From: an uncultured Bacteroidales bacterium
Lineage (GTDB): Bacteria > Bacteroidota > Bacteroidia > Bacteroidales > Paludibacteraceae
DNA length: 64,000 nt
Direction: 5' to 3'
Assembly: GCA_902798385.1 (NCBI GenBank)
Contig: CADBWK010000006.1
Location: 62,001-126,000, forward strand
Shown: piece by piece, positions 5,941 to 64,000 of the stretch
Layout of the letters: each line of letters opens with the position of its first letter
How positions within the stretch are numbered: position 1 is the stretch's first letter
Translations under genes and position numbers: made by a program
Notes under the pieces: generated by a model
Databases searched by the model: none
Told to the model about the DNA's origin: nothing
The model's input: only the letters and a program-made list of their open reading frames with translations

Positions 5941-7425
5941 ATGAAACATCCTATCCTATACATCGTTTTTGCCGTAGCGCTATTGACGGGCTGCGGACAA
6001 AAGGCCGGAAAGGCATCGGACAGAGACGTCCGTAATGCGAACGAGATGTGTTCGAGGTACTCAGCCGAGATCATCAATGCGCGTATGTCCGCTTGGTACA
6101 ACAAGGACAATCAGGTCGGATTCCCCAACGCCAACAGCACCAACGGCATCATTCAACCCGAGGCTGAGGCTTCGTGGGATTACGTCCCGGGCGTCGTAGC
6201 CAAGGGTATCCTCGATGTATGGGAATACTACCAAGACTCCGCCTGGGCAGACGCCTGGTATGAAGGTCTGTGTGCCTGGGCGCTCAAGCAGACGGCTACC
6301 GACAAAGGGGGTATATTGGACGATCTCAATTGTACGAAAGTGTTCCTCGGCCTATACGAGGGAGCCAAGCCCGGCGGACGTTTTGAGAACGCTGAGAATG
6401 CGGCGTACTTTATGGAGCAACTGCGCCGCGGAGCACGAGGGCTGGAGGATCATAAAAACCGCTATACGATCTCTTCCGGCGGCGCAGAAGGCGGTTGGAT
6501 GCATAAGGCAACGGATGACCCCGCCAAGAGTTATTACGGCCAGATGTGGTGTGATGGCGCGTATATGGGTCAGGCGCTGCTTGCCCAACTCTTAGTGATC
6601 GGTGCGACCGAAGGAACGAACCTCGGTTGGAACGATGTCTATGACCAGTTCAATGCCTCGTGGTACTACCTCTGGGACGAAGAGAAGGCTTTGCCCTACC
6701 ATGTGATCTTCACGGACGTAGCGACCAACAATAACGCGCGCGCGATATATGAAAGCGGACACGCGTATGCCTGCGCGAACGACAGCGCGATCTATCACTC
6801 GGAAGAGTACTGGGGACGCGCAGCGGGATGGTATATGATGGCGCTGGTGGACGTTCTCGAGGCATATCTCGAGAACTTAATGGCGAATGGCGAATGGACG
6901 AAAGGTGAACCCCTTCCCTCTGCGCAGCATTTCGATGAGATGCGGGATATGTTGACTAAGTTGGCGGATGGCGTCGTAGCGCGGCAAGATCCCAACACCG
7001 GTTGTTGGTACCAACTCTTGGCGTATGACAGCACGAAATGTGCCACGCAGGGCATCAACGATACCGGTTCACCCAAATACACGAATGTTGCCGAAGGCGG
7101 TACGCAATGTAACTACCTCGAGTCTTCCGCTTCCTGTCTCATCACAGCAGCGTTGCTGAAAGGCTCACGCCTCGGACTCATCAACCATGCCGAAGCCGGC
7201 AAACGCGGTTACGAGGGAATTATCAAAACCTTCCTGCGCGAAGAGGATGGCAACTATACCATTACCTCCAGTTGTCAGTCCGCCGGCTTGAGCAAAGACC
7301 GAAACGGTTCGGCTGCCTACTATCTCATCGGTAAGGATGTCCCGATTCAGGACAACGGCGAAGGCAAAGTGCTTGGCGCCTTCCTCATGGCCGCCGTCGA
7401 GTACGAACGAATGATAGAAAGATAG
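5941..7425 (+). CDS. GH105-family unsaturated rhamnogalacturonyl hydrolase lipoprotein
   Basis: 494 residues with a lipoprotein signal (LLTGC at about 14-18), so probably anchored in the envelope. The body matches glycoside hydrolase family 88/105 (YteR/YesR type), an (alpha/alpha)6 barrel that removes unsaturated galacturonyl residues from rhamnogalacturonan fragments released by pectin lyases. Supporting segments are MWCDGAYMGQALLAQ with its conserved Asp, WGRAAGWYMMALVDVLE, and NYLESSAS near the C-terminus. Length is slightly above the usual 370-450 because of the signal and a few insertions. A three-unit heptamer array (6879-6899) encodes a short solvent-exposed-looking stretch, and the stop lies in another heptamer array (7413-7447). 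Family assignment is firm; exact substrate is inferred. Confidence 0.85.
   Translation: MKHPILYIVFAVALLTGCGQKAGKASDRDVRNANEMCSRYSAEIINARMSAWYNKDNQVGFPNANSTNGIIQPEAEASWDYVPGVVAKGILDVWEYYQDSAWADAWYEGLCAWALKQTATDKGGILDDLNCTKVFLGLYEGAKPGGRFENAENAAYFMEQLRRGARGLEDHKNRYTISSGGAEGGWMHKATDDPAKSYYGQMWCDGAYMGQALLAQLLVIGATEGTNLGWNDVYDQFNASWYYLWDEEKALPYHVIFTDVATNNNARAIYESGHAYACANDSAIYHSEEYWGRAAGWYMMALVDVLEAYLENLMANGEWTKGEPLPSAQHFDEMRDMLTKLADGVVARQDPNTGCWYQLLAYDSTKCATQGINDTGSPKYTNVAEGGTQCNYLESSASCLITAALLKGSRLGLINHAEAGKRGYEGIIKTFLREEDGNYTITSSCQSAGLSKDRNGSAAYYLIGKDVPIQDNGEGKVLGAFLMAAVEYERMIER
6879..6899 (+). repeat. Heptamer array (AATGGCG), in coding sequence
   Basis: Three contiguous 7-bp units, two identical AATGGCG and one AATGGAC, inside the GH105 gene. 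Short, so chance cannot be excluded by itself; it matches the pattern of the other arrays. Confidence 0.55.
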
Positions 7426-7447
7426 ATTATAGAAGATAGATATCATG
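7413..7447 (+). repeat. Heptamer array (AGATAGA) spanning a gene junction
   Basis: Five 7-bp units with consensus AGATAGA. The array covers the stop codon of the GH105 gene, the whole 19-bp intergenic gap and the start codon of the next giant protein. Confidence 0.75.
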
Positions 7448-10400
7448 AAAAAGAGTTTTGCTGCGATAGTCATCGGACTTTGTTGTTTCCTTGGAATGAG
7501 AGCCGAGGGAGTGGTGATATTGGCTCATGATGACTTCAAAGACGGTAGTGCCGGGTATGCCAATAGCGGATTCAGTTCCGTTGGCGTTACAAGTGCAGAC
7601 GGTACGGTCAGAACCGGCACATACGCATTGGATGTAAAAACCAAAAAGTCCACCAGTGAAGGCTATGCGAAACGTGGCACCAAATTGGGGTATATCAAAA
7701 ACACGTATGTCCACATCATCTCCTGGGTGAAGGCCGACGCCGCATACCAGATGTACTGGAAAGGAAATAGCAGCGGAACGAAAGTGACATTAGGCGGTGA
7801 TGATGCATGGCATCGCTTAGCATGGGGCACTGATGGTTATCATTCATCCAGTGATGGAGCCAAGGATCATTATTTCTATGCCAAACAGAACAACGAAGCC
7901 GATAAACATATCTATGTAGATGATATCATTATCTACTATTCAACCGAAGCGCATACGGATATAGACAAACCGTCAGCGGCAAAGAATGTCGTACCATGCC
8001 CCACGGCAATCAAATGGACACCGGGTAAGGATACGATTGTGGCAGACGGTCAAACAGGTGTAGCCAAGACCTATATCCTTCGAAGCATAGATGGCACCAG
8101 TACAGGCTTGGTGCTCAATGATCAAGGTAGTTATTCCGAGGGCGACGAAGATGAGTCCGGTAAATTCGTTATCGTTGCCGAACTGGCACCGGACGTAAAG
8201 CGCTACGACGGCACTTTCACCACGGGTGATGTATATGCCATTGTGCATCGGGATACGGTGTTTAACTACTCGGCTCCGACGTATTGCACCATACCCGCCA
8301 TGTGTCTTCCTGAACCGACATTTACATGGACAAGCGAAAACCCGCTGAACGTGGGTGCTATCTATCCCATCTCCGTTACCAGCGACGCCGGAATACCGAC
8401 TTTGACATTGGTAGGTGCTCCGATAGCGGGTATCGAGTTTACTGCCAGCGGCAATAGCGGAACGGTTAAGATCTATCCGTCTTTCACAGGTTCAAGTCTG
8501 AAATTCAAGGCCGTAACAGCTGCCAGCGCTTCGTATCAGGCCGGCGAAGAGATATATGAGGTGCCTGTGCATGCTTGCTTGGTAGAAGGAGCGAATATCG
8601 TAGCCGCCAAATCAGCATATATCAATGCGGGTAGTTCCAAACCAAAGTACTATCAGAATGAAGACGGTGTAGGCCGTTTCTCGAAAGAAAACGGAACTTC
8701 CACCTGCAACGGTTCCGACGGAACATATAACGAATTCGGACAGAATTTCTCGTATTACGTTTCGGCGCAAGAGTTCCTTTGTACGCCATACGTAGACAAC
8801 GTAGTAAAAATACGTATTTATGCTATTGGAAATAAAGATACAGGAACGAAGGTAAATGGTGTATATTGGTCGGATAAGTACATTTCGTCCAAATCAAAGG
8901 CCACTGATATCACAAGCTCTTGTGCAACGGAGTATGGCAATCCGATAGGTCTCCCGAAGAACGAAGAGGGGTATGTAGATATCATCTTCCCGACGGCACT
9001 GAACTCGATGGACTATGTTTATATCACCTTTGACCAGTCCAGTACGAAAGTGTACGCGATAGACTATATCACGACCGGTGGTAGCTTAACGGCATCTATA
9101 GCATGGACAACCGATCCGGGTTCCACCAAAGTAGTGACGGAAGGTGACGAAGGATTTACCTATACGGCAGCGCAGACGGGCGCTATCCAATCGTTAGGCA
9201 CGATAAGTTATATATCTTCGGATCCGGAGGTAGCAAGCGTGAATGCAACCACAGGCGAAGTGACCATCAAGGATAACGGTTCGACCATCATTTCGGCTGT
9301 CCTCTCCGCTTCCGGTTGCTATAAAGAGATGTCGATTTCTTATCACCTGAAAGTACAGGAATGTAAGGATGATCCATGTATCATCAGTTCGCCGAAGGCT
9401 ATGAAGTGTCCGAGCGCGTCAGTTACAATGACCGTAGCGGACTGCGAGGAGAGCGCAACGATCCAATGGTACAAAGATGGAGTCGTTTTGCCGGGCGAGA
9501 CAGGAATGACCTTGACTACCAGTGAGGCCGGTGAGTACAAGGCCGTGGCTACGAAGAATTGTCATCAACATTCGAATGTCATTACGCTTTCGGACTTGAC
9601 GGCTGCGGCTACCATTACAGCGAATTTTGATTACTACTATATCAAGAACAACCTGTCTTCTTTTCACTCGATCAATATACCACTCTTTGATGTGGCGGAT
9701 GCAGACGGTATCTCGGCGAACTTCGACGTGACGAGTATCAATTGTTCACTTGTATTGGAGGATGGAAAGGTGTACTTACGTGGTCAGCCGACGATAACAT
9801 CGAATAGTACCGTCAATCCGTTTACCGTTACGGCAACCAATTCGTGTAACAGCACGAATGCAAACGCATCTATGGAATTGCGTCTGTTGGCTGCAACGGC
9901 AAAGCCGACAGCGGCGTGGGTGGTAACCGGAACGGATGAAGGAGGGTTTGATGCCGTTACCGGTGGTGAAGGAGCAGGTAATGCCCTGTTTGACTATTTG
10001 AATACGCATGGCTACTCGCTTACGGCAGTCAATGATTACGCTACAACGAATGAGAAGTTGATCGAGCAATACTATTCGCAATTCGACATTGTGGTTATGA
10101 CAGACTTCCCAAACTCCAAACATACCCATGACAGCAAGAGTTATACGAATGCGGTGGGTTCGCTGATTGATAAGAAACCGATGCTATCAATGGAGGCTTT
10201 CGTCTCGGCGCAACCGAACTGGCGTATATCGTCTGACCCGTATAATCCCTCGCCCAAGCAGGAGAGGATGAAATTGCTGTGTGCTGCTCACCAGATATTT
10301 GATCCGGCAGTAGAAATCGGAGTCTATACTGAAAGCGGCAATGAGTATGTGAATGTATTGGCATCGCTTAGCGGCAGCCGTACACTGCAAGGCTTTTCAC

Positions 10401-12268
10401 CGGTCAGCATCCCGGATTTCATCTTCATTGCTACCATTCATGACGATACGCATGGCGAGTTGATTACTTGTTGTGAACGTCAGACGGAGATCATGGCGCG
10501 CTTTATGATTCTGGGTATCGAATCGTCCGGTATGAGTTATATGAACGATGGTGCCAAGCAGATGGTAAAGCAGATATTGGACTACCTTTTGATTGCCGAT
10601 CCAACCATGATTGCTGATTGCTCATTAGTCTTCGATAACGGAAATGATGGTGCAGTAATAGGTGGCGGAGATAATAAGTGGAGCAACAAGTATAACTGGG
10701 GACCGAACCACGGCTCGCTGATACCGTCATCATACCATGCGGTGCGTATCGAGCGTCCGTGTCAGGTAGATATACCGGATGCGCACGCTTCGTCTGCCCG
10801 TATTGCCAAAGGTTCCTATTTGGAGAAGACCTATAACGGTTCTATTGAGGTGTTACCGCAAGGAGCGTTGTCGCTCACCGGTTTTATGAAACGTACCTAC
10901 AATAACGACTTCCTTACCCGTCATCCGCTTCAAGAAGGCGATATCACGATCCATGCCGATGCGTCACACAGCGGAGCGTTAATCTGGGGCGATGCGAGCG
11001 GCAATGTGCCGGCTACGGTAGATATGTATTCCAAAGCAACAGGCGCAAGCACCTCTAATCCGGTATGGCAATATATCGGTTCTCCGTTTGCGAGTCGTAT
11101 GACGGCTATCGAGCAGTATTACGAAGCGTGGATGTGCCGTTGGTCATACATCAGCAATCATGAACTGGGCGGTACATGGACTTGGGTGGAGAATGAAGAC
11201 CGTATCGATCCGTTCGTAGGTTATACCATCACGCAGACTGCGGCGAAGACATACACGTGGACAGGCACGTTGAATGCTCCGGAAGAGAAGGTGCTGACGC
11301 TTCGTTATACCGCAGATGCAGAAGGATTTGCGATGTTAGCCAACTCATGGGTGGCACCCATCAATATCGGCGCGATGGAGGCAGGAGATTTCGATGGAGC
11401 AGATCCTACTATCTATATCTTCAATTCCGGAACGTACGGCCAGTATGAGACCGGAGGCACCCCGGCCGGTGATGCCAAAGTCATAGATAAGACTGGAGCA
11501 GGACAATACACTGCTGTACCGGTTAATGCGGCTTCGTATGTAGGTATGTCCACTATTCCGCCGATGCAGGGCTTCTTCGTACAGACAACACGTAATGGAA
11601 ACCTGACGTTGGACTATAAGAAAATAGTGATGGATACCATCAACTTTGAATCCACGACCACGCCGATGCGTAGTCCTCAACGCGTGGCAGAAGAGGAACC
11701 GACAGGCAAGATTATTCCTGAGGTAATGCAACTGAATATTGTTTCCGAAAATTGGGGAGATAAGGCGTTCCTCTTAGCGCATCCCGAGTTCTCGGATGCA
11801 TACGAATTAGGATGGGAAGGACGCAAACAAGAAGGTGACATACGTGCTCCGTACCTCGCAGTCGATGTACCGGCCGGAGCGATGTCTGTGGCGGCGGTGA
11901 GTGATTTCGAAGAGCGCGAACTGATTTTCCGCGCAGGAGAGGACAGCGTATATGCTTTCCATTTCGATTATAGCGGAGAGACCATCTATCTGTACGACCG
12001 GCTCACGGAGCAGGCGACGGAGATAGCGACCGGCAATACCTATGCGTTTGTGGCGAAGAACAAGACGCCGCTGCCGCGATTCCTCATTACGTCGAATCCG
12101 CCGAGTATGCCGATGGGCGTTGAGCAATTGGATAATGGACAATGGACAATAGACAATGCGCGCAAGATGATCATCGACGGGCAGTTGTATATTCTTCGCG
12201 ATAACCGTTTCTATGACGCACGCGGTGTTCGCGTGACGGATCAACGGAGAAAGGAGACGGCACAATGA
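7445..12268 (+). CDS. Giant multidomain secreted protein, paralogue of the truncated first gene
   Basis: 1607 residues, complete. Signal peptide at about 1-21. The first domain (22-170) resembles a carbohydrate-binding jelly roll (ALDVKT, VHIISWVKAD, IYVDDIIIYY). Then come beta-rich modules (170-545), a BIG2-type Ig-like domain (about 549-640), an Ig-like domain with IQWYKDG (645-720), the ThuA/amidotransferase-like alpha/beta domain (about 820-1060), a WSNKYNW strand-rich segment (about 1075-1140) and the long C-terminal region shared with the first giant protein. The tail ARKMIIDGQLYILRDNRFYD aligns with the tail of the paralogue, as expected for a type IX-style sorting end. A heptamer array (12125-12159) encodes the linker just before this tail. 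The stop overlaps the next start by 4 bp, so the two are translationally coupled. Role at the cell surface is inferred; carbohydrate binding is suggested by the N-terminal domain and the GH105 neighbour. Confidence 0.85.
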   Translation: MKKSFAAIVIGLCCFLGMRAEGVVILAHDDFKDGSAGYANSGFSSVGVTSADGTVRTGTYALDVKTKKSTSEGYAKRGTKLGYIKNTYVHIISWVKADAAYQMYWKGNSSGTKVTLGGDDAWHRLAWGTDGYHSSSDGAKDHYFYAKQNNEADKHIYVDDIIIYYSTEAHTDIDKPSAAKNVVPCPTAIKWTPGKDTIVADGQTGVAKTYILRSIDGTSTGLVLNDQGSYSEGDEDESGKFVIVAELAPDVKRYDGTFTTGDVYAIVHRDTVFNYSAPTYCTIPAMCLPEPTFTWTSENPLNVGAIYPISVTSDAGIPTLTLVGAPIAGIEFTASGNSGTVKIYPSFTGSSLKFKAVTAASASYQAGEEIYEVPVHACLVEGANIVAAKSAYINAGSSKPKYYQNEDGVGRFSKENGTSTCNGSDGTYNEFGQNFSYYVSAQEFLCTPYVDNVVKIRIYAIGNKDTGTKVNGVYWSDKYISSKSKATDITSSCATEYGNPIGLPKNEEGYVDIIFPTALNSMDYVYITFDQSSTKVYAIDYITTGGSLTASIAWTTDPGSTKVVTEGDEGFTYTAAQTGAIQSLGTISYISSDPEVASVNATTGEVTIKDNGSTIISAVLSASGCYKEMSISYHLKVQECKDDPCIISSPKAMKCPSASVTMTVADCEESATIQWYKDGVVLPGETGMTLTTSEAGEYKAVATKNCHQHSNVITLSDLTAAATITANFDYYYIKNNLSSFHSINIPLFDVADADGISANFDVTSINCSLVLEDGKVYLRGQPTITSNSTVNPFTVTATNSCNSTNANASMELRLLAATAKPTAAWVVTGTDEGGFDAVTGGEGAGNALFDYLNTHGYSLTAVNDYATTNEKLIEQYYSQFDIVVMTDFPNSKHTHDSKSYTNAVGSLIDKKPMLSMEAFVSAQPNWRISSDPYNPSPKQERMKLLCAAHQIFDPAVEIGVYTESGNEYVNVLASLSGSRTLQGFSPVSIPDFIFIATIHDDTHGELITCCERQTEIMARFMILGIESSGMSYMNDGAKQMVKQILDYLLIADPTMIADCSLVFDNGNDGAVIGGGDNKWSNKYNWGPNHGSLIPSSYHAVRIERPCQVDIPDAHASSARIAKGSYLEKTYNGSIEVLPQGALSLTGFMKRTYNNDFLTRHPLQEGDITIHADASHSGALIWGDASGNVPATVDMYSKATGASTSNPVWQYIGSPFASRMTAIEQYYEAWMCRWSYISNHELGGTWTWVENEDRIDPFVGYTITQTAAKTYTWTGTLNAPEEKVLTLRYTADAEGFAMLANSWVAPINIGAMEAGDFDGADPTIYIFNSGTYGQYETGGTPAGDAKVIDKTGAGQYTAVPVNAASYVGMSTIPPMQGFFVQTTRNGNLTLDYKKIVMDTINFESTTTPMRSPQRVAEEEPTGKIIPEVMQLNIVSENWGDKAFLLAHPEFSDAYELGWEGRKQEGDIRAPYLAVDVPAGAMSVAAVSDFEERELIFRAGEDSVYAFHFDYSGETIYLYDRLTEQATEIATGNTYAFVAKNKTPLPRFLITSNPPSMPMGVEQLDNGQWTIDNARKMIIDGQLYILRDNRFYDARGVRVTDQRRKETAQ
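12125..12159 (+). repeat. Heptamer array (ACAATGG), in coding sequence
   Basis: Five 7-bp units (CAATTGG, ATAATGG, ACAATGG and two variants) encode residues around EQLDNGQWTIDNARK, the linker before the C-terminal tail of the giant protein. The paralogue has unrelated sequence at this position. Confidence 0.9.
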
Positions 12269-12919: not shown

Positions 12920-14761
12920 TTAGAATCGGAAGGTTGCGCCTAACAGGAAGTTGATTCCCTGACTACGATAACCGTAGTAGTACTCGTTCTTGTGATGCAA
13001 CCAGTTATTGAGCTGGAAGAAGAGCGTCAGGTTCGGCTTCGGCTCCGGACGGAGTACTTGGCTTGTTCTCGAATCGCTATGAGCCGCTTTGCCTACCCAC
13101 ATATCATACTGCAGACCGAGGTTGAGATCCAAGACCGGACGAAGGTTATGCTCGGAATAGGTGTTGGTCGTGCCGTTATACAGCAATGCTGTACGTCCTC
13201 CGGAGAAATGGTTATCCGAATAGAGCGACCAGTGTTTGTCAATCCGGCCGTCGATACGAACATCTACTTTCCAGTCCGGACGATCATAAACCGTCATATC
13301 CCCTTTCCAGAAGAAGTAATCTCCGCTGACGTTGATGCGCAGCTTGTCCTGAAGGTGATAGTTGATCTGACCACCGATCTTACCGCGCTGGTAGTTCGTG
13401 TGGAAATAACTGAAATCACCTGCCATCATCTTGACGTTCAACGGCGCAAAAGTGGCACTGTCCGCCGTAGCTACCCATACATCCTGATTCATCATATACG
13501 CATACCCACCGTGGATCTCGATAAGCAGATCCCGGTACGGACGAATATGAAAACCGAGTTCGGCATCTACCGGTGTATATTCCGCCACATGCGGCTCGAT
13601 GATACCTGCATGGATGATTCGATAGCGGTTCTCCTCCATATAACTCTGCAGCGTTCCGAGGCCGTGATAACCTTGGATATCGGCATAGATCGTGAGCCAT
13701 TGTTTGGCAATCTGTGCCTCCAAGTTGATATGCGGCGAAGGAGCAAAACTGAGGTTCTCTACGCCGGAGAGACCGTTCTGACCATGACCGAGGTTGAGGT
13801 CGATGTTCACACCGATATGTACGCGCACGCGCTTGCCTTCGTATGCATAGTACGGCTCCAGACGGAAGTTATGACGTCCGCGATAGAGACTATCCGGAAT
13901 TACATCCGCCAGCGAACCGAGTTGCAGGAAGTTATTCTGCATATAGAAATTCGCGCCTACATGGTGCTCGTTTGCATGCCAATCGAAGCCCGCTTTGGTA
14001 CGAATCTGATGTTCACTCACCGCACCGGGTTTGGAGAACAAGGCATAACCCGTCTGAACCAGGTACTGCACGTCATTCTTGGCATTCGCCTTCACGCCGA
14101 TAAACGCTTCAGCCGTCCAGAGGGACGTCTTGTCACGATCTGTCACATCCGCACGATTAGCGTACGCTACTTTATTCTTCTCCCATCCGCCGAAATCATG
14201 ATTGGTGGTGGCGAAATAGTTATAGTCGTACCAATGACCGTACTTGTGATAGTAGATATTCCCGCCGTTGAAACCGAAATAGAGGTCGCACGAACTGAAG
14301 GTATGCGTGAAATCCAGACCCAATTTGGTCTTGCTCAGTGTCGCAAGTCCCCATTCTGCCTTGTGATGCGCATATACATCGAGGATAGATTTCTTACCGT
14401 CGTCCAGATGATACCCGAAATCGAACAAGGTATTCGGATGACCGATCGCGCCGCGGACATAACCGTTAAAGCGACGTCCCGGTTCAAATCGGGTAGGCTG
14501 CGAGAGCAACGGATGGAAAGTCGTACCCGGTGTCACATCCGCTGTGTACTCGGAGTACTCCACCGGCGTAGGTTCGATCGTTGTCTCCACCACCGCCGGC
14601 TTGGTCGATACCTTACCCGCTGCTTGTATCACCGGTTGGAAATCACGCTCTACCGTCACCGAACGATTCAGCGCGCTGTCGCTCTGAGCCGAAAGGGAGG
14701 CGCAGACAAGTAGCGCTATCCCGCTAATCGCTAATCGAAAATCGTTAATCGTTATCCTCAT
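12920..14761 (-). CDS. Outer-membrane beta-barrel protein
   Basis: 613 residues with an N-terminal signal peptide (about 1-25, ending LSAQ). The body is rich in alternating aromatic/polar strands typical of outer-membrane barrels and ends in a terminal Phe (LLGATFRF), the usual BAM recognition signature. No TonB plug domain is visible, so it is not a complete TonB-dependent receptor; it could be a distant TonB-like barrel or a porin-type protein. It is the last gene of the transcript that begins with potA, and its start lies inside the 3' end of the TPR gene (17-bp overlap). The first codons, including part of the signal peptide, are encoded by a heptamer array (14723-14757). Cargo or partner unknown; acting with the TPR protein is inferred from coupling. 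Confidence 0.75.
   Translation of the reverse strand: MRITINDFRLAISGIALLVCASLSAQSDSALNRSVTVERDFQPVIQAAGKVSTKPAVVETTIEPTPVEYSEYTADVTPGTTFHPLLSQPTRFEPGRRFNGYVRGAIGHPNTLFDFGYHLDDGKKSILDVYAHHKAEWGLATLSKTKLGLDFTHTFSSCDLYFGFNGGNIYYHKYGHWYDYNYFATTNHDFGGWEKNKVAYANRADVTDRDKTSLWTAEAFIGVKANAKNDVQYLVQTGYALFSKPGAVSEHQIRTKAGFDWHANEHHVGANFYMQNNFLQLGSLADVIPDSLYRGRHNFRLEPYYAYEGKRVRVHIGVNIDLNLGHGQNGLSGVENLSFAPSPHINLEAQIAKQWLTIYADIQGYHGLGTLQSYMEENRYRIIHAGIIEPHVAEYTPVDAELGFHIRPYRDLLIEIHGGYAYMMNQDVWVATADSATFAPLNVKMMAGDFSYFHTNYQRGKIGGQINYHLQDKLRINVSGDYFFWKGDMTVYDRPDWKVDVRIDGRIDKHWSLYSDNHFSGGRTALLYNGTTNTYSEHNLRPVLDLNLGLQYDMWVGKAAHSDSRTSQVLRPEPKPNLTLFFQLNNWLHHKNEYYYGYRSQGINFLLGATFRF
14723..14757 (-). repeat. Heptamer array (GATTAGC) at a gene start
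   Basis: Five 7-bp units; on the - strand GATTAGC twice, GATTTTC, GATTAAC and a terminal variant. It encodes the start of the barrel protein's signal peptide (residues about 2-13) and the last codons of the upstream TPR gene. Confidence 0.9.
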
Positions 14762-17675
14762 CTTTTTCCTCCTTTTCTACGGGTTTCTCCAATTCGTCGA
14801 GTTGGGCGATTCGCGCGCTGATGAGCGCTGCGATGTCGTCGCTATGACCGGTGTAGTTCTGCTGCAGCACAAGCAGGTACTGACGTGCCTGGAACAGTTC
14901 GCCGCGCTCGCGGTTGATATCGCTCAACAGGATCAGCGCCCGTGCTAACCAGTACTGCTGCTGCGTGTTCATCTGCGTGAACTCCATTACCTGTGCCTCG
15001 GCAGCATCGTAATCCTTCATCTCGAAATAACTCTGCGCTAACAGATATTTCGCCTCTGCACCCTGTGCCGTACGAACCTCAGCGGACAATGCCGTCAGAT
15101 CCGGCTGCGCTTTGCTCCACTGCTTGAGGGCAATGTACGCTTTAGCACGACCATACTGCGCCTCGGCTTTCGTCTCTTCCTTTACCGGCGTGTCATTCAA
15201 GATCTGATCGGCAATGTCGATCGCTACCTGATGACGACCCAGCGCTTGCGAGCAACGCAAAATACCCAGACGGGCAATCGTCGTGTTCTCGCGCGTCGAA
15301 GCGAGCGCCTGCATGCGATAGAAAGCATCCAGCGCGCAAGCGTAATCCGCTTTGTCGTAACATAACTCCGCTACGCGGATAGCCGCCTCTTCCTGATAAG
15401 GGTTGGCGTTCATCTCCGCGAGGATGATATACTGCGCCAAGGCCTCATTATTCTGTCCGAGACGGTAGTACGAATCGGCGAGGTAGTAACGCGCGGTGGT
15501 GCAATAACGTCCGCCGGCGCAGAACTTCGTGATGTAGTTGGACAGCGAAACGGTGGCTTTCTGATAAGCCGCTTGCATATACTGCATCTCCGCCGCCGCA
15601 TAAATCAGCGAGTCCTCCTGCGTTGAGACATTCATATTGATCTTAGCCAAGTTCTTGGTGTACGCCAGATACTCATTGACGTTACCCGACTCCACATACA
15701 GCGTCTGCAACGCATCCAAGGCCGTATAAGCCTCTTCGGTTGCCGGATATTTCTCTATCGTACGGCGATAAGCCGTGATTGCATTGTCGTTCTGACCTAA
15801 GTTACGATATAGCATCGCGCATTCGAGCGAAGCCTTACGCGCCAGCGTCGAATGCGGATAGATAGCGAGCAAACTCTCGTACGTCACGATCGCTCCGCGC
15901 TCATCGTCCTGTTGCAACTGTGCACGGGCGATCTCATACACACCATCATCCGCATAGTCGGACTTCGGATAGCGCGTAGTGAGTTCGCGGAGCACACTGA
16001 TCTTCTCCGCGTACTTATGCTGTAAGCCCAAGGCATAACCTTTCTGGAACATCGCGTAGTCCGCTCCTGCCGCCTGTAACTTGGCTACCTGCGAGTAATA
16101 CGTGATGGCTTGCGGGAACTGACGGGCATTGAAATAGCAGTCGCCGATTCGGTTCAGCGCATCCGCATAGGTCGGCTCGGTTGCCAAAGCCGCATCAATA
16201 TAAGTCGAGAAAGCATCCCGTGCCTTGTCGTATTTGGCTTGCGAGAAACAGGTGTAACCCTGTAAGTACCGCGCCATCGAGTAGTTCTCCGACTGACGGG
16301 CATTCGCGCGAGCGAAGAAGGCATTCAAGTCCTGCTCGCAGGCCGCGTAGTTACGCAAGCGATAATTGGCTTCGGCGCGTACGTAGTATGCCTCTGTCGT
16401 ATATTGATCCGATTCGGCTTTGTGCGCAATGACCTGTGTCATCCAATCTGCCGATTGTTGCATCTTACCTTGCAGGAAATGATCGGCGCCTAATTGATAG
16501 CGCAGGTACTGCTTGGTCTGCAGCATCTTCGGCGAAGGATTCGGAATAGAGTCCAGCGTTGCAATCGCTGCGGCGTAGTTCTTACTCTGCATCAGCACAT
16601 CCGACAGCAACTGATAGATACGGTTCTCGTACTTGGAGTCCGGGAACTGACGAAGGAAATCATTGAACGCACGAACGGACTCGCCCAACGCGCTCGAACT
16701 CTGATACGTACAGAGCGTGTAGTTATATGCCGCTTCCTCTTTGATAGAAGGCGTGAGGCCGAAATTAGCTGCGGCTTGATAAGAGAGCTTAGCTTGCTCC
16801 GGTTGGTGGAGTTGCACATAGGCATTACCCATCGTCAGACAAGCAGCCTCCGAGATCGTGTCGTTCTCCTGCTTCACCTGCTTGAGTGCCTTCACCGCCT
16901 CATTGTATTGACCCAAACGGTAGTTCGCCACACCGAGCATATACATGTCGTTGCGCAGCATCTCCTCTTGTTGCTCCGCAGCCGTTTTGGCATATTGATT
17001 CAGGTGCTCTACTGCCTGTGCGTAGTCTTGCTTCTGGTAGTAAATCTCACCGAGAATACGATGGAGCTCGCCGTTATTGAGACTCTCCGGCTGTTCGCGA
17101 AGCAGCGTGTTGGCACGCGTCTCTACCTCCTCATAGTTATTGTTCGCATACTCGATCTGCACGATATAATACGGAACAGTCTTGGCGTAAGAGGGTTCGT
17201 TCTCCAGCTTCTTCAAAGCCGGTAAAGCCTTATCGTATTTCTGTTGCTTATACATGCAGTAGGCGTAGTAATACGTGCCGCGTACAGTGTAGCGGTTCGT
17301 CTCCTTGGCCAGATAGCCGAAGTAGATGGACGCACGCTGGTACTCCTGCTGCATCAGATAGGCATAACCGCGATAGAAAGAGTAGTCCAACTGATGCGGA
17401 CGCGTCAGCGCTTGGATATCAATCGGCTCCAAGATCTTCAACGCCTGCTTGTAATGCCCTTTCTCCACCAGCAAAACGCCTTGCATAAAATGCACTTCAT
17501 CCGCGAAAGTGGTGTAGGGATAGGCCTGCAGGTACGCTTTCAGGTCGCGCTGCAGCAACTTATCCCGCCCGTCGAATCGCTCGGAGAGGGCATTATAGCG
17601 TTGCTCCATCTCCGTCGTTTGAGCAAATAGGCACAATGGCAGGAGAAGGGCGATAACCAATGTTTTTATTCTCAT
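14745..17675 (-). CDS. Large periplasmic TPR protein
   Basis: 976 residues. Signal peptide at 1-19 (ends LFAQ) and then essentially continuous tetratricopeptide repeats, recognisable by recurring A-x-x-x-Y/F patterns such as GHYKQALKILEPI, QEYQRASIYFGYLA and KYDKALPALKKLE. The C-terminal tail is Lys/Glu/Asp-rich. TPR arrays of this size act as scaffolds for protein-protein contact; in the Bacteroidota periplasm such proteins often serve outer-membrane or cell-wall machinery, but no specific partner can be read from the sequence. The start overlaps the potD stop by 4 bp and the stop overlaps the start of the barrel gene by 17 bp, so all three are coupled. Confidence 0.85.
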   Translation of the reverse strand: MRIKTLVIALLLPLCLFAQTTEMEQRYNALSERFDGRDKLLQRDLKAYLQAYPYTTFADEVHFMQGVLLVEKGHYKQALKILEPIDIQALTRPHQLDYSFYRGYAYLMQQEYQRASIYFGYLAKETNRYTVRGTYYYAYCMYKQQKYDKALPALKKLENEPSYAKTVPYYIVQIEYANNNYEEVETRANTLLREQPESLNNGELHRILGEIYYQKQDYAQAVEHLNQYAKTAAEQQEEMLRNDMYMLGVANYRLGQYNEAVKALKQVKQENDTISEAACLTMGNAYVQLHQPEQAKLSYQAAANFGLTPSIKEEAAYNYTLCTYQSSSALGESVRAFNDFLRQFPDSKYENRIYQLLSDVLMQSKNYAAAIATLDSIPNPSPKMLQTKQYLRYQLGADHFLQGKMQQSADWMTQVIAHKAESDQYTTEAYYVRAEANYRLRNYAACEQDLNAFFARANARQSENYSMARYLQGYTCFSQAKYDKARDAFSTYIDAALATEPTYADALNRIGDCYFNARQFPQAITYYSQVAKLQAAGADYAMFQKGYALGLQHKYAEKISVLRELTTRYPKSDYADDGVYEIARAQLQQDDERGAIVTYESLLAIYPHSTLARKASLECAMLYRNLGQNDNAITAYRRTIEKYPATEEAYTALDALQTLYVESGNVNEYLAYTKNLAKINMNVSTQEDSLIYAAAEMQYMQAAYQKATVSLSNYITKFCAGGRYCTTARYYLADSYYRLGQNNEALAQYIILAEMNANPYQEEAAIRVAELCYDKADYACALDAFYRMQALASTRENTTIARLGILRCSQALGRHQVAIDIADQILNDTPVKEETKAEAQYGRAKAYIALKQWSKAQPDLTALSAEVRTAQGAEAKYLLAQSYFEMKDYDAAEAQVMEFTQMNTQQQYWLARALILLSDINRERGELFQARQYLLVLQQNYTGHSDDIAALISARIAQLDELEKPVEKEEKDEDND

Positions 17676-51224: not shown

Positions 51225-51277
51225 AAGATACGTAAAAGACAGAAGGAGAGGTCCGAAAAGAGAAACTTGAGGTCGCA

Positions 51278-51323: not shown

Positions 51324-52172
51324 TTACAGGATAGCTAAGATGGCTACGATCAGGGTGGAGAACATGAGGACGGGCATGTGGCGGTCGAGGTGGTCGGTGT
51401 GTGTCCAGACGAACCATAGGTGCCATGCCCAGACGGGGATGATGGCGAGTGTCCACCAGTGACCGTAGAGGACAAAGAGCGTCAGGCAGATCACGAGCAG
51501 CAGGGTGTGATAGATCCGTGCACCGGTAGCGCCGAGGAGGCTGGCGAAGGTGCGTTTGCCATGTATGCGATCGTTCGCCATATCGCGTATGTTATTGAGG
51601 TTGAGCACGCCGACGCAAGGCAGTCCGATGGCGGCGCCGCAGGCGACGACCTCCCAGGTGACCGTCTGCGTCTGGAGGTAGAAAGCACCGATGGTGCTGA
51701 GCAGACCGAAGAAGAGGAACACACCCAGATCGCCGAGACCCATATAGCCGTAACTATGCTTGCCGAGGGTGTACTTGATCGCGCCGACGATGGCCAGCGC
51801 ACCGAGGCCTAAGAAGACCCAACTCTGTTCGCTGTTGAGCGTTCCAAAAGCCGTCCATACCAGGGCAGTACCGAAGAGGATGCAGAGTCCGATGAAGAGC
51901 AGGATCATATGCTTCATCTGCTGCACGGTGATGGTTCCGGCCTGCAGTCCGTAGGCTTCGCGTCCGTGCTGATCGGCGTCCGTACCCTTGAGCGCGTCGC
52001 CGAGTTCGTTGCAGAGATTACTGAGGATCTGCAGACTCAGCGTGGTAAGGATGGCCAGGATAAAAGTGGAAAGTTGAAAGTGGAAAGAGTATGCCAAGCC
52101 GGTGCCAAGAATGATTCCTGACACCGACAAGGGCAATGTGCGTAAACGCAATGATGTGATATAGGGATTCAT
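51324..52172 (-). CDS. menA: 1,4-dihydroxy-2-naphthoate prenyltransferase
   Basis: 282 residues from the second of two adjacent ATGs (MNPYITSLRLRTLPLSV). UbiA-family membrane enzyme that attaches the isoprenoid tail to dihydroxynaphthoate in menaquinone synthesis. Eight to nine predicted membrane helices; the prenyl-diphosphate site is NLCNELGDALKGTDADQHGRE and the second Asp-rich site is NNIRDMANDRIHGKRT. A heptamer array (52063-52090) encodes SFHFQLSTF within the first loop/helix region. Last gene of the long operon starting at 60890; overlaps the leucine-rich-repeat gene. Other men genes are not in the window. Confidence 0.92.
   Translation of the reverse strand: MNPYITSLRLRTLPLSVSGIILGTGLAYSFHFQLSTFILAILTTLSLQILSNLCNELGDALKGTDADQHGREAYGLQAGTITVQQMKHMILLFIGLCILFGTALVWTAFGTLNSEQSWVFLGLGALAIVGAIKYTLGKHSYGYMGLGDLGVFLFFGLLSTIGAFYLQTQTVTWEVVACGAAIGLPCVGVLNLNNIRDMANDRIHGKRTFASLLGATGARIYHTLLLVICLTLFVLYGHWWTLAIIPVWAWHLWFVWTHTDHLDRHMPVLMFSTLIVAILAIL
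52063..52090 (+). repeat. Heptamer array (AAAGTGG/AAAGTTG), in coding sequence
   Basis: Four 7-bp units on the + strand; the complementary strand encodes residues around SFHFQLSTF near the N-terminus of MenA. Confidence 0.88.
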
Positions 52173-53470
52173 CACTCAATCGGGAAGAAGACCTGTCCCT
52201 CTTTGGGTTGGAATTGCTTCCATCCCGGTGCCGCTTTATAGGCTTCTACGGCTACGGCCGGCACTTCGATGCGGAGTCCGTCCTTGGCGATACCGGAGAA
52301 AGCAGCGCCGCTGGTGGTAGGCACTTGAGTTGCCAGACAGCGGATATGATTGAGAGCCGAACAACCGGAGAATGCGCCGTTACCGATCTGCTCAACGGTC
52401 GAGGGCAGGGTGATCTCTTTGATTCCCTTGCAGCCGTGGAAAGCATTGTAATCGATGGTGCGGATACCTTCGGGCAGGGGGATAGCGGTCAGCGCCACGC
52501 AGCCGTTGAAGACGTTCTTGGGGATGCCGTTCGGAACGACCTTGAAGACCACTTGGCTCAGATTCTCGCAGCCTTGGAACTCGCCGTCGCTGAGGGTGGC
52601 GTTATCCAATTCGACCGATTGGAGCTTCTTGCAGTTGAGGAAGATACCGTCGCCGAAAGTCTTGATGGACGCCGGGATGGACAGCTGCTCCACCGCCGTA
52701 CCGGAGAAGGCTTTCTTGCCGATATGCGTCAGGCTCGCACCCAGGTCAATCGTTTTGATATTGCTGCAGTTGAGGAACGCCTCGTCGCGGATGACTTGGA
52801 GGTTCGCCGAGGTATGGAACTCCGTCAGGCCGGTACAACCGCTGAAGGCTCTCTCCTCGATCATCGTCACGCTCTGCGGGATGTCGATAGCGCCCAGTTT
52901 GGTACACTTGAAGAAAGCTTTCTTCTTGATGGTCAGCACGTTGTCGGAGATCGTGACGGACTCCAAGGCGGGGCAGTTAGCGAACTGCTCCTCGGTGATC
53001 TGCTTGTTCTCGATCACCACGCGCTTGAGCATTTTGCAGTTCTTGCACAGGTCGTCGCCTATGTTCGCCACGGTCGCGGGGATCGTGAGTTCCTCCAGAC
53101 CGGAGTTCTCGAACGCGGACTTGGCGATGAAGGTGATCTGCGGACTGATGGTGAAATGCTTGAGGCTCTCGCAACCGGTGAAAGCGTTCTCACCGATGGT
53201 GGTGACGGTAGCGGGGTAGGTGACGGAAGTCATGGTTTTGCTACCGTAGAAGGCCTTGGCATCGATGCCTGTCACGGCGAACTCACCTGCCATCGTTCCG
53301 ATCTGTTCAGGGATCGTGACATCGCCCACATAAGGAGCGTCACCTTTGGTGACCAGGGCGGCGTTTTGGTCAATGCGGTAGTAGATACCGCCTAAGCAGA
53401 AGTCAAAAGCCGGCTTGGCTTGCAGGCATACCGCTGCTACCAAACAAAGGGATAAAAAGATCTTTCTCAT
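52172..53470 (-). CDS. BspA-type leucine-rich-repeat secreted protein
   Basis: 432 residues. Signal peptide at about 1-18 followed by a short N-terminal domain and about a dozen 23-residue LRR_5 (BspA/Treponema pallidum type) repeats of the form IGENAFTGCESLKHF, IDYNAFHGCKGIKEI and IGNGAFSGCSALNHI. Ends in a short cap with VEAYKAAPGWKQF, typical of these proteins. The repeats form a curved surface for protein binding; the target is unknown. It sits between sir2 and menA in the long operon, overlapping menA and 6 bp from the Sir2 stop. Confidence 0.9.
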   Translation of the reverse strand: MRKIFLSLCLVAAVCLQAKPAFDFCLGGIYYRIDQNAALVTKGDAPYVGDVTIPEQIGTMAGEFAVTGIDAKAFYGSKTMTSVTYPATVTTIGENAFTGCESLKHFTISPQITFIAKSAFENSGLEELTIPATVANIGDDLCKNCKMLKRVVIENKQITEEQFANCPALESVTISDNVLTIKKKAFFKCTKLGAIDIPQSVTMIEERAFSGCTGLTEFHTSANLQVIRDEAFLNCSNIKTIDLGASLTHIGKKAFSGTAVEQLSIPASIKTFGDGIFLNCKKLQSVELDNATLSDGEFQGCENLSQVVFKVVPNGIPKNVFNGCVALTAIPLPEGIRTIDYNAFHGCKGIKEITLPSTVEQIGNGAFSGCSALNHIRCLATQVPTTSGAAFSGIAKDGLRIEVPAVAVEAYKAAPGWKQFQPKEGQVFFPIE

Positions 53471-53476: not shown

Positions 53477-54175
53477 TTATTTTTGATATTTAGCAATCAG
53501 TTGTTCAACCAAAGGCGGGACTCCTTCGGTAGCTTTCTTTTGGATATGCGTGATCCGATCCGCCCACATGCCGAACTCGGGTTGTCCCGGATCGACGAAA
53601 TAGATGGGGCATTTCGCCGGCGCATAATGGATGAGGGACGCGGCGGGATAGACGTTCAGACTCGTGCCGACTACCACCATGATATCCGCTTGGCTCGCGA
53701 TACGACATGCCTCGTCGAAATACGGCACGCCTTCTCCGAAGAAGACGATGTACGGGCGCAGTAACGAGCCGTCCGGATGACGGTCACCGTAATGCTGTTC
53801 CCAGCCCTCGAGTGGCACGGTAGCGGTCTCGTTGTTCTCCGAACGCAGTTTGGTGATCTCCCCATGCAGATGCACCACCTCTTTGGCGCCCGCACGCTCG
53901 TGCAGGTCATCTATATTCTGCGTGATGACGCGCGTACCCGGGATGGCCTGCTGTAACTTAGCGATCGCCATGTGGGCAGCGTTGGGTTGTGCCGCCAAGG
54001 TGTCCTTGCGGCGCGCGTTGTAGAAGTCCACACATAACTGCGGATTGCGTAACCACGCTTCGTGGGTACACACATCCTCGATGCGGTAGTGCTCCCATAA
54101 CCCGTCTGAGTCACGGAAGGTACCCAGACCACTCTCTGCGCTCACTCCGGCGCCCGTGAAAACAACGATATTCAT
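53477..54175 (-). CDS. Sir2-family NAD-dependent deacylase lacking zinc cysteines
   Basis: 232 residues. Sirtuin core: GAGVSAESGLGTFRD, TQNIDDLHERAG, catalytic His in HLHGE and VVGTSLNVYPAASLI. It would remove acyl groups from lysines using NAD. The four-cysteine zinc site expected after HLHGE is absent (the segment reads ITKLRSENNETATVPLEG), so the small domain must be stabilised otherwise or the protein has diverged; CobB-like bacterial homologues without zinc exist. The start codon lies inside a heptamer array (54172-54199). Confidence 0.9.
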   Translation of the reverse strand: MNIVVFTGAGVSAESGLGTFRDSDGLWEHYRIEDVCTHEAWLRNPQLCVDFYNARRKDTLAAQPNAAHMAIAKLQQAIPGTRVITQNIDDLHERAGAKEVVHLHGEITKLRSENNETATVPLEGWEQHYGDRHPDGSLLRPYIVFFGEGVPYFDEACRIASQADIMVVVGTSLNVYPAASLIHYAPAKCPIYFVDPGQPEFGMWADRITHIQKKATEGVPPLVEQLIAKYQK

Positions 54176-54199
54176 TGGTAATTGGTAATTGGTTATTTA
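54172..54199 (+). repeat. Heptamer array (TAATTGG) at a gene junction
   Basis: Four 7-bp units (TCATTGG, TAATTGG twice, TTATTTA). It fills the 17-bp gap between the DUF486 gene and sir2, including the sir2 start codon and the DUF486 stop. Confidence 0.88.
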
Positions 54200-54564
54200 A
54201 AGCCGAAAACAAAATAGACCGCAGCGATCAGCAGCAGGCATGCTACGAAATGATTCCATTTGAGTTCCATATGGAAAGCGATCATCGAGAAGACGACAAA
54301 CACCACGAGGGTGATGACCTCCTGGATGACTTTCAGTTGCATCAAGCTGAACGTACCTCCGTTCCCGATAAAACCCATCCGGTTCGCCGGTACCTGCAGG
54401 CAGTACTCGAAGAAAGCGATGCCCCAGGACAGGAGAATGACGAAGATGAGCGGCGTGGCGTTGGTGAGGAAACCCGTCTGCTGCAACTTGAGGTGGCCGT
54501 ACCACGCCAAGGTCATGAAGATATTCGACGCTAAAAGCAATAAGATAGTGTATAACGCGTTCAT
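54193..54564 (-). CDS. DUF486 (DMT-like) membrane protein
   Basis: 123 residues, four membrane helices. Contains the DUF486 hallmarks WYGHLK near the N-terminus, SWGIAFFEYCLQVPANRMG in the middle and LKVIQEVITLVVFVVFS. The family is a small relative of drug/metabolite transporters with no known substrate. Overlaps the TtcA-like gene by 4 bp. Confidence 0.92.
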   Translation of the reverse strand: MNALYTILLLLASNIFMTLAWYGHLKLQQTGFLTNATPLIFVILLSWGIAFFEYCLQVPANRMGFIGNGGTFSLMQLKVIQEVITLVVFVVFSMIAFHMELKWNHFVACLLLIAAVYFVFGFK

Positions 54565-55301
54565 TGTTGCGGTAAATAATCCTTTTTGATGTTCGTTAGT
54601 GCGCCGTACATGGAGTCAACGGCTTCGGGGTTGAGTGCTTTGATCTGCGCCAACAGTCCTTTGACTTTCTCCCGCGAACTCACATGCTCGAACGGACACA
54701 GTTTGTTTTGCTTCTGATAACCCTGCTGCTCCGCGTAGGCTTTGATATCCGCTTCGTCGATGAGGCATAATGGGCGAATGATCCGAATCGGCATCTTGTC
54801 CAACTGCAGGATGGGCGGCATGGTGGCGAACGTGCCCTGGTAGATGAGGTTCATCAGCAGGGTCTCTATCACGTCGTCCCGATGATGGCCGAAAGCGATC
54901 TTGTTACACCCGAGTTCCTGCGCGACGTTAAAGAGCGTCTTGCGGCGGTACCATGAGCAGAGAAAACATTCGTTTTCTATTTTTGATTTTTGATTTTTGA
55001 TTGGTGATTTGGGAGCTTCTCCAATCTCCGTGTCGCGAACCAACAAGGGCACACCTGCCTCTTGACAGAAGGACTCCAGATAACTGAGGTCGGTCTGATA
55101 GTCCCGTTCCTTGACGCGTACATGCAAGGCGGTCACCTGAAAGCGGGGTTTGTATATTTTCGCACGCCGACCAAGCAGTTCGGTCAGGAGCAGGCTGTCT
55201 TTGCCGCCGCTGAGGCCGATGAGGATATGATCTCCGTCCTCGATAAGGCTGTAGTCCGCACAAGCCTTATGGAACCGCCGGGTCAGTTGCTCAATTGCCA
55301 T
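54561..55301 (-). CDS. TtcA-like tRNA 2-thiolation enzyme (PP-loop ATPase)
   Basis: 246 residues. PP-loop SGGKDS at 31-36 and a CxxC pair in NECFLCSWYRRKTLF that in TtcA binds an Fe-S cluster; then KIAFGHHRDDVIETLLMNL. The family adenylates and thiolates cytidine 32 of tRNA. A six-unit heptamer array (54973-55014) encodes SPIKNQKSKIE just before the CxxC, a position where TtcA proteins have a short loop. The stop/start junctions overlap both neighbours. TtcA versus a close TilS/TtuA-like relative cannot be settled by eye. Confidence 0.88.
   Translation of the reverse strand: MAIEQLTRRFHKACADYSLIEDGDHILIGLSGGKDSLLLTELLGRRAKIYKPRFQVTALHVRVKERDYQTDLSYLESFCQEAGVPLLVRDTEIGEAPKSPIKNQKSKIENECFLCSWYRRKTLFNVAQELGCNKIAFGHHRDDVIETLLMNLIYQGTFATMPPILQLDKMPIRIIRPLCLIDEADIKAYAEQQGYQKQNKLCPFEHVSSREKVKGLLAQIKALNPEAVDSMYGALTNIKKDYLPQQ
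54973..55014 (-). repeat. Heptamer array (TCAAAAA), in coding sequence
   Basis: Six 7-bp units on the - strand, three of them identical TCAAAAA. They encode a Lys/Ser/Asn-rich insertion immediately before the CxxC of the TtcA-like protein. Confidence 0.97.
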
Positions 55302-62435: not shown

Positions 62436-62448
62436 ATTCGTGATTTTT

Positions 62449-62488
62449 TTAGGAGCCTAGGATCCCAGGAACCCGGGATACTAGGGTA
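62449..62488 (+). repeat. CTAG octamer array, copy 4
   Basis: Tetramers at 62449 (TTAG), 62457 (CTAG), 62465 (CCAG), 62473 (CCGG) and 62481 (CTAG), exactly 8 bp apart, with spacers GAGC, GATC, GAAC, GATA. The same order of spacers as the copies near 5200-5900. On the - strand the last CTAG supplies the TAG stop of the DUF819 gene. Confidence 0.85.
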
Positions 62489-63653: not shown

Positions 63654-63967
63654 TTTCTCAATTGATAAATATATTCTTGAACAAAAATCCAGAAAGGTAG
63701 CGGTATCAAGAGCGTGATGGTCAAGAAAACCAGCTGCCAAACGAACTGCACCGAGTTATGGAAAGCGCGGTCTGCCACTTTGTGCTGTATAAAAAGCCAC
63801 ATCCCCCACAACGGTATCGTCATCAAAGCACTCACAACGAAGAGCGGGAAGAACAGGATAGCCAAAGGAATAGCCAACCACCGAGGTAACCGACTCTTCT
63901 TTGCCGGCTCTTCGTTAACCAGCGCTTTCATGCGTTCGGTTAAGACCTCTCTTAGTTCCATGATCAT
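63650..63967 (-). CDS. Small membrane protein at the right edge
   Basis: About 106 residues if it starts at the ATG at 63967 (MIMELREVLTERMK); ATG at 63961 is equally plausible, and the frame stays open to the window edge, so a longer protein is possible. Two membrane helices (around LAIPLAILFFPLFVVSALMTIPLWG and QLVFLTITLLIPLPFWIF). No family recognised. Coupled to the DUF819 gene by a 4-bp overlap. Confidence 0.65.
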   Translation of the reverse strand: MIMELREVLTERMKALVNEEPAKKSRLPRWLAIPLAILFFPLFVVSALMTIPLWGMWLFIQHKVADRAFHNSVQFVWQLVFLTITLLIPLPFWIFVQEYIYQLRK

Positions 63968-63975
63968 CTGCGCCC

Positions 63976-64000
63976 GACTTTCCACAATCGACAATCGACT
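63976..64000 (-). repeat. Heptamer array (GATTGTC) at the right edge
   Basis: Three units and a partial one, on the - strand GATTGTC, GATTGTG and GAAAGTC, cut by the window edge. It lies just upstream of the likely start of the last gene. Confidence 0.7.

Follow-up and report, generated by a model that had tools for sequence, protein, structure and literature searches.

Heptanucleotide arrays in the window and their abundance

The window analyzed here is a stretch of 64,000 nucleotides on contig 6 of the genome of an uncultured Bacteroidales bacterium (1.92 Mb, 74% complete), the closest named relatives of which are rumen and gut metagenome-assembled genomes labelled Paludibacteraceae or uncultured Bacteroidales. 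Dispersed along the window are tandem arrays with a unit of seven nucleotides, which a first-pass annotation had listed at 15 loci. Each locus was given a period-7 self-similarity score (match +1, mismatch −2) and compared with 300 random 70-nt windows, for which the 95th percentile was 4 and the 99th percentile 8.04. Ten loci were clear (score at least 9), eight of them being strong with scores of 11–23 and those at 44080 and 63976 scoring 9. A further four were weaker (scores 6–8), two of which scored higher at period 14, and the locus at 36527 was rejected with a score of 4. Tandem Repeats Finder at a low threshold returned rows at 14 of the 15 loci, with none at 36527. Exact starts, shifted by a few bases from some of those first listed, are used below.

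6879–6897, plus strand: array of unit AATGGCG in open reading frame (ORF) 5941–7425 (plus); score 12.
7413–7441, plus strand: weak, degenerate GATAGA-type array at the junction of ORFs 5941–7425 and 7445–12268; period-7 score 6, period-14 score 9; Tandem Repeats Finder rows.
12129–12157, plus strand: array of unit AATGGAC near the 3′ end of ORF 7445–12268 (plus); score 16.
14722–14754, minus strand: array of unit CGTTAAT in the first codons of ORF 12920–14761 (minus), overlapping the end of ORF 14745–17675 (minus); score 14.
20007–20039, plus strand: array of unit ATTGGAT, 4.7 copies, in ORF 18910–20247 (minus); score 23, the best in the window.
20204–20229, minus strand: weak, degenerate array at the 5′ end of ORF 18910–20247 (minus); score 8.
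24686–24721, minus strand: degenerate GAAAGTC array, weak by score (8), in the inter-domain linker of a Mrp/ApbC-like P-loop NTPase, ORF 23927–24961 (minus).
44082–44111, minus strand: degenerate array between the lpxB ORF (42981–44078) and a phosphomannomutase-like ORF (44099–45472); score 9.
46549–46579, minus strand: array of period 7/14 at the 5′ end of ORF 46053–46574 (minus); period-14 score 14, period-7 score 8.
49194–49226, minus strand: array of unit GGAAAGT/GGAGAGT in a hybrid histidine kinase-like ORF, 46580–50143 (minus; NCBIfam models below cut-offs); score 11.
52063–52087, plus strand: array of unit AAAGTGG in the N-terminal part of the menA ORF, 51324–52175 (minus; TIGR00751 over cut-off); score 12.
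54174–54197, plus strand: array of unit ATTGGTA at the start codon of a Sir2-family ORF, 53477–54175 (minus; Pfam SIR2); score 14.
54979–55009, plus strand: array of unit ATTTTTG in a PP-loop ATPase ORF, 54561–55301 (minus; TtcA/TilS-like, Pfam ATP_bind_3, TtcA model match below its cut-off); score 18.
63984–63999, plus strand: short array of unit ACAATCG, 2.3 copies, at the window edge; score 9.

Rfam and tRNA scans of the window found nothing. When arrays were counted at a score of at least 10, the window held 8 at period 7 compared with 0.0 in 10 dinucleotide shuffles, together with one array each at periods 6 and 8 and two at period 5. The count was extended to 464 kb of the same genome (the window and twenty 20-kb stretches) and compared with five shuffles in which the amino acid sequence and codon usage of each gene were preserved and intergenic DNA was shuffled. 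This codon-shuffled control, which the first-pass annotation had proposed as a check, confirmed the excess, with 101 period-7 arrays observed and a mean of 3.4 in the shuffles. The neighbouring periods gave 8 versus 7.0 (period 6) and 15 versus 8.6 (period 9), and periods 8 (13 versus 0.2) and 11 (12 versus 0.6) were also above the shuffles, far less so than period 7. Seven was the most abundant unit length among periods 4–30, with a density of ~ 1 array per 5 kb. A genus sample of 1.68 Mb was assembled from the window, the other stretches of its genome and relatives, with loci known to be duplicates of a fetched genome removed. At a score of at least 12 over periods 5–13, this sample contained 197 arrays at period 7, 53 at period 11 and 35 at period 8. 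The period-7 observation is real and genome-wide.

Heptad density varies strongly between species of the genus. Sixty named loci around the Mrp gene in genus-like relatives (601 kb) carried 11.8 arrays per 100 kb, and 19 loci from more distant Bacteroidales carried 3.5 per 100 kb (170 kb; one short locus omitted). One degenerate pattern gave at least 20 matches in 61 of 101 genus genomes, none in 6 of the 101, and at least 20 in ~ 32 of 391 other genomes of the phylum by hand count, this pattern being nonspecific in that its reversed control was as frequent in many genomes.

Arrays of other periods are also present in the window. A perfect 11-bp tandem array, TAATCACCTAC in 5.3 copies, lies at 51168–51225 and adjoins an A-rich array of period 14 (51285–51316). 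Period-8 arrays were recorded at 5215–5237 (CTAGGAGC), 5885–5926 (AGGAACCT) and 62451–62479 (AGGATCCC), two of them with a palindromic core.

Position, orientation and host genes

In the 1.68 Mb sample, 233 arrays were located relative to genes predicted by greedy longest-ORF calls, for which edge assignments are approximate. Of these, 133 lay inside predicted genes, 64 crossed a gene edge and 36 were intergenic, intergenic DNA making up only 6.6% of the sample. Within the genes of the source genome the arrays were spread fairly evenly across deciles, apart from slightly raised numbers at the two ends: the first 50 nt and the last 50 nt each contained 8 arrays, ~ 3.2 being expected for the first. 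The original statement that arrays occur at junctions and inside genes without breaking frames was borne out. Array length differed with location: 79 of 133 genic arrays measured 28–34 bp compared with 6 of 36 intergenic arrays (Fisher P = 4 × 10^−6), and in the source genome alone the figures were 42 of 59 and 2 of 10. A fixed element of 30–33 bp had looked convincing in the 101 arrays and was rejected once arrays were split by location, as intergenic arrays do not show this size.

Units are diverse, with 57 distinct oriented units among the 101 arrays of the source genome, and the two main unit families first described are too simple a division. Similarly, the G-rich strand is not mostly the coding strand, as had been suggested: it was coding in 4 of the 8 strong window arrays on direct reading and in 55 of the 133 genic arrays. 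A unit grammar obtained by expectation maximization (EM), AKTNGWN, was tried as a signature and rejected, its reversed-pattern control being as frequent or more so in many genomes. Pairs of units within one mismatch amounted to 8.1% within a genome, 7.9% between genomes and 3.7% for letter-permuted units (233 arrays). Units from one genome thus resemble each other no more than units from different genomes do, which gives no sign of copying between loci, and dispersal of arrays within the genome was rejected on this ground. Arrays less than 3 kb apart shared units in 13–14% of pairs compared with 7–15% farther away.

The orientation of the arrays matched the regional GC skew in 147 of 233 cases (P = 8 × 10^−5) and was unrelated to the strand of the host gene (58 of 133) or to regional gene direction (113 of 233), a pattern suggestive of replication and not of expression. 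Adjacent arrays were co-oriented in 120 of 174 pairs.

Nothing was seen to indicate that the arrays are regulatory. Heptad-reading binding has been described for RHH repressors, and the arrays could be binding sites under selection for a heptad-reading DNA- or RNA-binding protein. Such a role has been proposed for TAACTGA repeats in the account given in PMC4679880. In line with it, unit order was nonrandom (EM score −91.9 versus −101.5 for position-permuted units; SD 0.35, 20 permutations), and the 12129 and 20204 arrays were unchanged at ~ 12% divergence. However, orthologous loci diverge in unit, most arrays lie in or across coding sequence, there is no orientation to genes, and in many genus genomes the reversed consensus occurs at least as often, so that the motif does not stand out. 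Selection as binding sites is accordingly regarded as improbable.

The host genes were identified by scanning 30 of the 37 array-bearing genes of the source genome, 8 of the 30 having no match at 1e-40 or models below cut-off only. Matches over cut-off placed arrays in ValS (two), Rho, MurC, MurG, Dxs (two), IspH (two), TrxB (two), UvrA (two), PepT, IlvE and MtaB, and the match of a MutY-like array-bearing gene was just under its cut-off. Several of the host genes are essential in model bacteria. The 24686–24721 array encodes the linker of the Mrp/ApbC-like protein between Pfam FeS_assembly_P (residues 4–66) and ParA (residues 96–344). Across species the units of this linker include CCAATCT, GAAAGTC, AAAGGTG and AGCCAAC types, and the translated protein is 343–348 residues long, save three cases of 350–353. 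Among 30 species, an array was present at one IspH loop in 7 and at a second loop in 8, and for ValS the count was 4 at each of two loops. In many species, irrespective of whether an array is present, the first IspH loop region measures 63 nt. Orthologous loops thus carry different heptads in different species at near-constant length, and in the loops examined the array-encoded residues were not conserved in repeat-free orthologues. With the shuffle control, this means that neither outcome named in the first-pass annotation as a refutation was obtained.

Other short repeats, including GC-rich palindromes and 11-mers, occupy array-type loops in other species (G and L codes denote the genomes and loci compared, G000 being the window genome). 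Palindromes of the CCCTCCC...GGGAGGG type were found in frame in the Mrp linker of L046, L067, L075, L096 and L146, and also in L062 in the gene orthologous to window positions 25119–28466. Tandem 11-bp repeats of the AACGACACGGC type lie in the ValS loop (alignment columns 850–900) of L215, L217, L223 and L227, a site where heptads are found elsewhere. An 872-residue ORF in L122 (11278–13896, plus strand) joins alcohol dehydrogenase-like and aldehyde dehydrogenase-like parts with a heptad array at the join, from residue 392 on, and looks as if the array fused two neighbouring genes in frame.

Change between related species and origin of the arrays

The window arrays were compared with their counterparts in two relatives. 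The 34-nt interval at 6879 has equal length in G003, where it holds a GGGATTA-type array, and in G006 it aligns without gaps and holds no array. The 12129 array is unchanged in G003 (flanks 95% identical). At 14722 a CGATAAC array is found in G006, and the sequence of G003 is a different one. The 20007 array, nearly perfect in the source genome, corresponds to a degenerate array of equal length in G003, and the 20204 array is identical in G003, with a CTTTCAC array at this place in G006.

Orthologous genic pairs with arrays on both sides numbered 57 distinct pairs from 32 query arrays, with flanks 80–99.5% identical (72 pairs, 43 with no difference, before duplicate genome copies were removed). 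All length differences were multiples of 3, being 0 in 28 pairs, 3 in 10, 6 in 14, and 12, 12, 15, 24 and 42 in the rest. This bears on whether the arrays are contingency loci giving phase variation by slipped-strand mispairing. Steps of 7 nt do shift the frame, and one-unit differences were seen at two loci, G064 versus G065 and G061 versus G526, the latter a gene junction. Against this, none of the 57 genic pairs had a frame-shifting difference, housekeeping enzymes are among the host genes and the arrays are short and degenerate, and we consider phase variation very improbable.

Units were found to change in concert. At one coding locus AGTTGAA in four copies became AGTCGAA in four copies with length unchanged: G061, G062, L062 and G526 share one unit (in G526 with one change in the last copy), and in G064 and G065 the same base is altered in all four copies. 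Over 54 equal-length pairs, 28 concerted unit columns were counted and 5.9 were expected, a comparison that includes duplicates and owes much to wholesale unit differences. In the comparison of G061 with G062 (flanks 92–100% identical), seven distinct array loci comprised two that were the same, one that was altered and four at which a single species had the array. Polarized with G526 as outgroup, each of these four differences was a loss in the array-less lineage, and an insertion reading of them was rejected. The loss at 40636 may, on visual inspection, reflect recombination with another allele, as differences cluster around the site. A separate stretch in G064 (C17, 34806–34877; L169) holds two inverted heptad arrays around a short spacer, and G063 lacks 52 bp of it.

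Preformed arrays of ~ 31 bp pasted at new places, as mobile or retro-copied elements, would be consistent with a 33-bp in-frame insertion in L046 relative to seven relatives, with a 31-bp difference between G061 and G062, and with a 2.5-kb part of L125 that holds three near-identical CTGACGG arrays. However, the outgroup makes the 31-bp case a loss, units show no excess similarity within a genome, and no target-site duplication was noticed in the cases displayed, no systematic search having been made. Such an origin is very unlikely.

Between close species, then, the arrays differ in copy number, switch units in concert, erode by substitution and disappear; within genes they show only frame-neutral length differences, and most arrays have about four copies. 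The arrays are heptanucleotide simple-sequence repeats (SSRs), and the best explanation of these data, to which we give a probability of about 0.58, is that they are generated and rewritten by recurrent misalignment during DNA synthesis, for which seven nucleotides is the preferred register. A polymerase or repair step would re-anneal the growing strand seven nucleotides back by means of a short microhomology. In a gene the minimum frame-neutral gain would be three copies (21 bp), taking one copy to four, and four copies with 2–5 nt of terminal microhomology would come to 30–33 bp. Homogenization, decay and loss would come after the misalignment, and arrays would persist at tolerant sites such as loops, gene junctions and the linkers between domains. 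Later trimming of the flanking loop would let total loop length drift back. The restriction of the 28–34 bp cluster to genic arrays fits such a reading-frame filter (one copy plus three), and arrays of about seven copies (54 and 51 bp) that two species carry in the linker of DNA polymerase I were also counted in favour. Other findings taken in favour are the period-7 excess over codon-preserving shuffles, the genic pairs differing by multiples of 3, the one-unit differences, the concerted unit changes, the absence of extra unit likeness within a genome and the agreement with GC skew.

Several observations weigh against misaligned synthesis as set out here. Fifteen genic arrays were compared with the closest array-less orthologue (flanks at least 84% identical), two-flank orthologues of any kind being available for only 93 of the 233 arrays. 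Net gain was always a multiple of 3, with values of −51, −45, −3 (two cases), 0 (four), 3 (two), 9, 12 (two), 18 and 21. In the −45 and −51 cases the other species carries longer sequence of another kind, and some zero-gain cases look like eroded copies of the array concerned. Just one genic net gain was exactly +21, so the one-plus-three idea draws mainly on the length mode. In the same comparison three edge arrays gave −4, 3 and 31 and one intergenic array gave 21. If an array in an essential gene grew by +7 at a time, the frame would be lost at intermediate stages; the gain is therefore required to occur as a single event, and no such event was observed. The four polarized presence/absence cases included no array birth, the array being ancestral in each. 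Usually the native loop has been substituted, not simply extended. Moreover, 17 of the 133 genic arrays (35–41 bp) and a 61-bp array in a DNA polymerase I linker misfit the one-plus-three rule, the agreement with GC skew could equally reflect strand-biased mutation of existing arrays, and the model offers no account of why the unit is seven. Growth by doubling (1 to 2 to 4 copies) was tried and rejected, alternate units being less alike than neighbours (6.02 versus 6.20 of 7 positions in 123 arrays); as the arrays were selected by neighbour similarity, the test leans against doubling.

Since essential genes cannot pass through +7 or +14 states and the loop is usually replaced, the leading rival is one-step filler synthesis, in which a polymerase repairing a break or gap would repeatedly copy one seven-nucleotide template, lay down ~ 30 nt of repeat per event and overwrite the native sequence. 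The presence of arrays in ValS, MurC, MurG, Dxs, IspH and Rho, where +7 steps kill the frame, accords with this, as do loop lengths that barely change (63 nt in IspH; the 6879 interval). Nevertheless, the 30–33 bp size is absent from intergenic arrays and so cannot be an intrinsic product length, and the four polarized young cases are losses, with no births among them. Filler synthesis is a possible explanation, albeit an unlikely one.

Known heptad repeats and DNA polymerase I

The short tandemly repeated repetitive (STRR) sequences of heterocystous cyanobacteria consist of a few conserved heptamer units in short tandem arrays dispersed in the genome. The present arrays resemble them in being short, tandem and dispersed, and had been likened to them. 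They do not form one family of the STRR kind, given the diversity of units, the lack of within-genome likeness and the location of most arrays in or across genes. An STRR unit string searched against plasmids with the low-complexity filter on gave no match. Rickettsia palindromic elements are mobile palindromes inserted in protein genes. They share with the heptads the tolerance of short repeats in frame within protein genes; unlike them, the present repeats are heptads in tandem and give no indication of having been copied from one locus to another.

According to summaries in PMC4679880 and PMC4692102, Mrazek et al. (2007) found heptanucleotides to be the commonest long unit in most repeat-rich prokaryotes and conjectured polymerase slippage with a 7-nt contact to account for seven. 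The present arrays are like prokaryotic heptanucleotide SSRs, which have a scattered phylogenetic distribution, in the period-7 excess, in the predominance of seven and in unit numbers that differ between relatives. They are unlike them in being degenerate and largely in coding loops, including those of housekeeping genes, in rumen Bacteroidales.

Heptamer TAACTGA repeats were described in Beggiatoaceae, Cyanobacteria and five Bacteroidetes (MacGregor 2015, PMC4679880), so a counterpart in Bacteroidota has been described, although the first-pass annotation knew of none. These are seven-base direct repeats, some of them in long arrays, that differ between close species at one intergenic region. 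They have a single fixed unit and lie mostly just upstream of start codons in the Beggiatoaceae studied, whereas the present arrays have many units, mostly in or across genes, with only the mild excess at gene ends. TAACTGA is not a leading unit here and is absent from the 101 arrays of the source genome. The GGGAATC and GGGGA(C/T)T repeats of Xanthomonas and Nostoc (Rehm et al. 2015, PMC4692102) are also heptads, with four units commonest in Xanthomonas and with length and sequence varying extensively between close species while the same genes flank them. In contrast, those units are of G-quadruplex type and described as intergenic, and the present ones are mostly without G-tracts in arrays that mostly touch genes. 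Heptamer satellites in Chloroflexus receive mention in PMC6749651. Among the matches listed from the open-licence full-text literature, none concerned heptads in Paludibacteraceae or in essential-gene loops, which is weak evidence of absence.

The heptad class is already known in prokaryotes, and what is unusual here is the density, the location in loops of housekeeping genes and the mode of change; the present analysis adds the replacement of units in place and the length mode of genic arrays. Heptad repeats have been known in bacteria for years with merely a conjecture for why seven. In this genus arrays differ between species with flanks 88–98% identical, some species have almost none, and rich and poor sister species lend themselves to a natural comparison of their polymerase and repair genes. 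Protein loops can owe much of their sequence to a process acting at the DNA level, which has consequences for how conservation is read, for domain annotation and for claims of loop function.

Such a comparison was made with 11 repeat-rich genomes, including the source genome, and 8 repeat-poor genomes of the genus, hand-picked and mostly of high completeness. MutS was over cut-off in all 19, rich or poor, which excludes its absence as the cause; no search was made for other repair genes. Loss of the flap nuclease of DNA polymerase I was likewise rejected, the 5′ nuclease part of PolA being matched in 19 of 19. The PolA match was broken over the 3′–5′ exonuclease region in all 11 repeat-rich genomes (proteins of 770–855 residues) and continuous in 4 of the 8 repeat-poor genomes (867–884 residues). 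In Pfam searches of 10 of the 19 genomes, the exonuclease domain was weakly found in those four and not in six others (three rich, three poor). Judged by these matches, DNA polymerase I appears to lack the 3′–5′ exonuclease domain in 15 of 19 genus species (L287, L288, which is the PolA of G000, and L289–L301).

Retention of the domain in 4 of 8 poor and 0 of 11 rich genomes gives 0.018 by a simple exact count, uncorrected for ancestry. Against a polymerase connection, the remaining four repeat-poor genomes also had a broken match, and in three of these the protein was clearly shortened. In addition, the four domain-keeping PolA proteins had no motif-I signature by eye, and their exonuclease may thus be inactive already. 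Exonuclease loss as the cause of the repeats is a lead, not a result. A bolder possibility, and a rather unlikely one, is a genus-level, replication-linked form of writing with an intrinsic seven-nucleotide step, tied to the exonuclease-less DNA polymerase I, that would rewrite junctions and loops in place in one step, including those of essential genes. If true, the lineage would have a mutation mode supplying proteins with frame-neutral seven-residue peptide segments at a high rate. PolA is itself a host, with heptad arrays of 33, 51, 54 and 61 bp in the vacated linker of four repeat-rich species.

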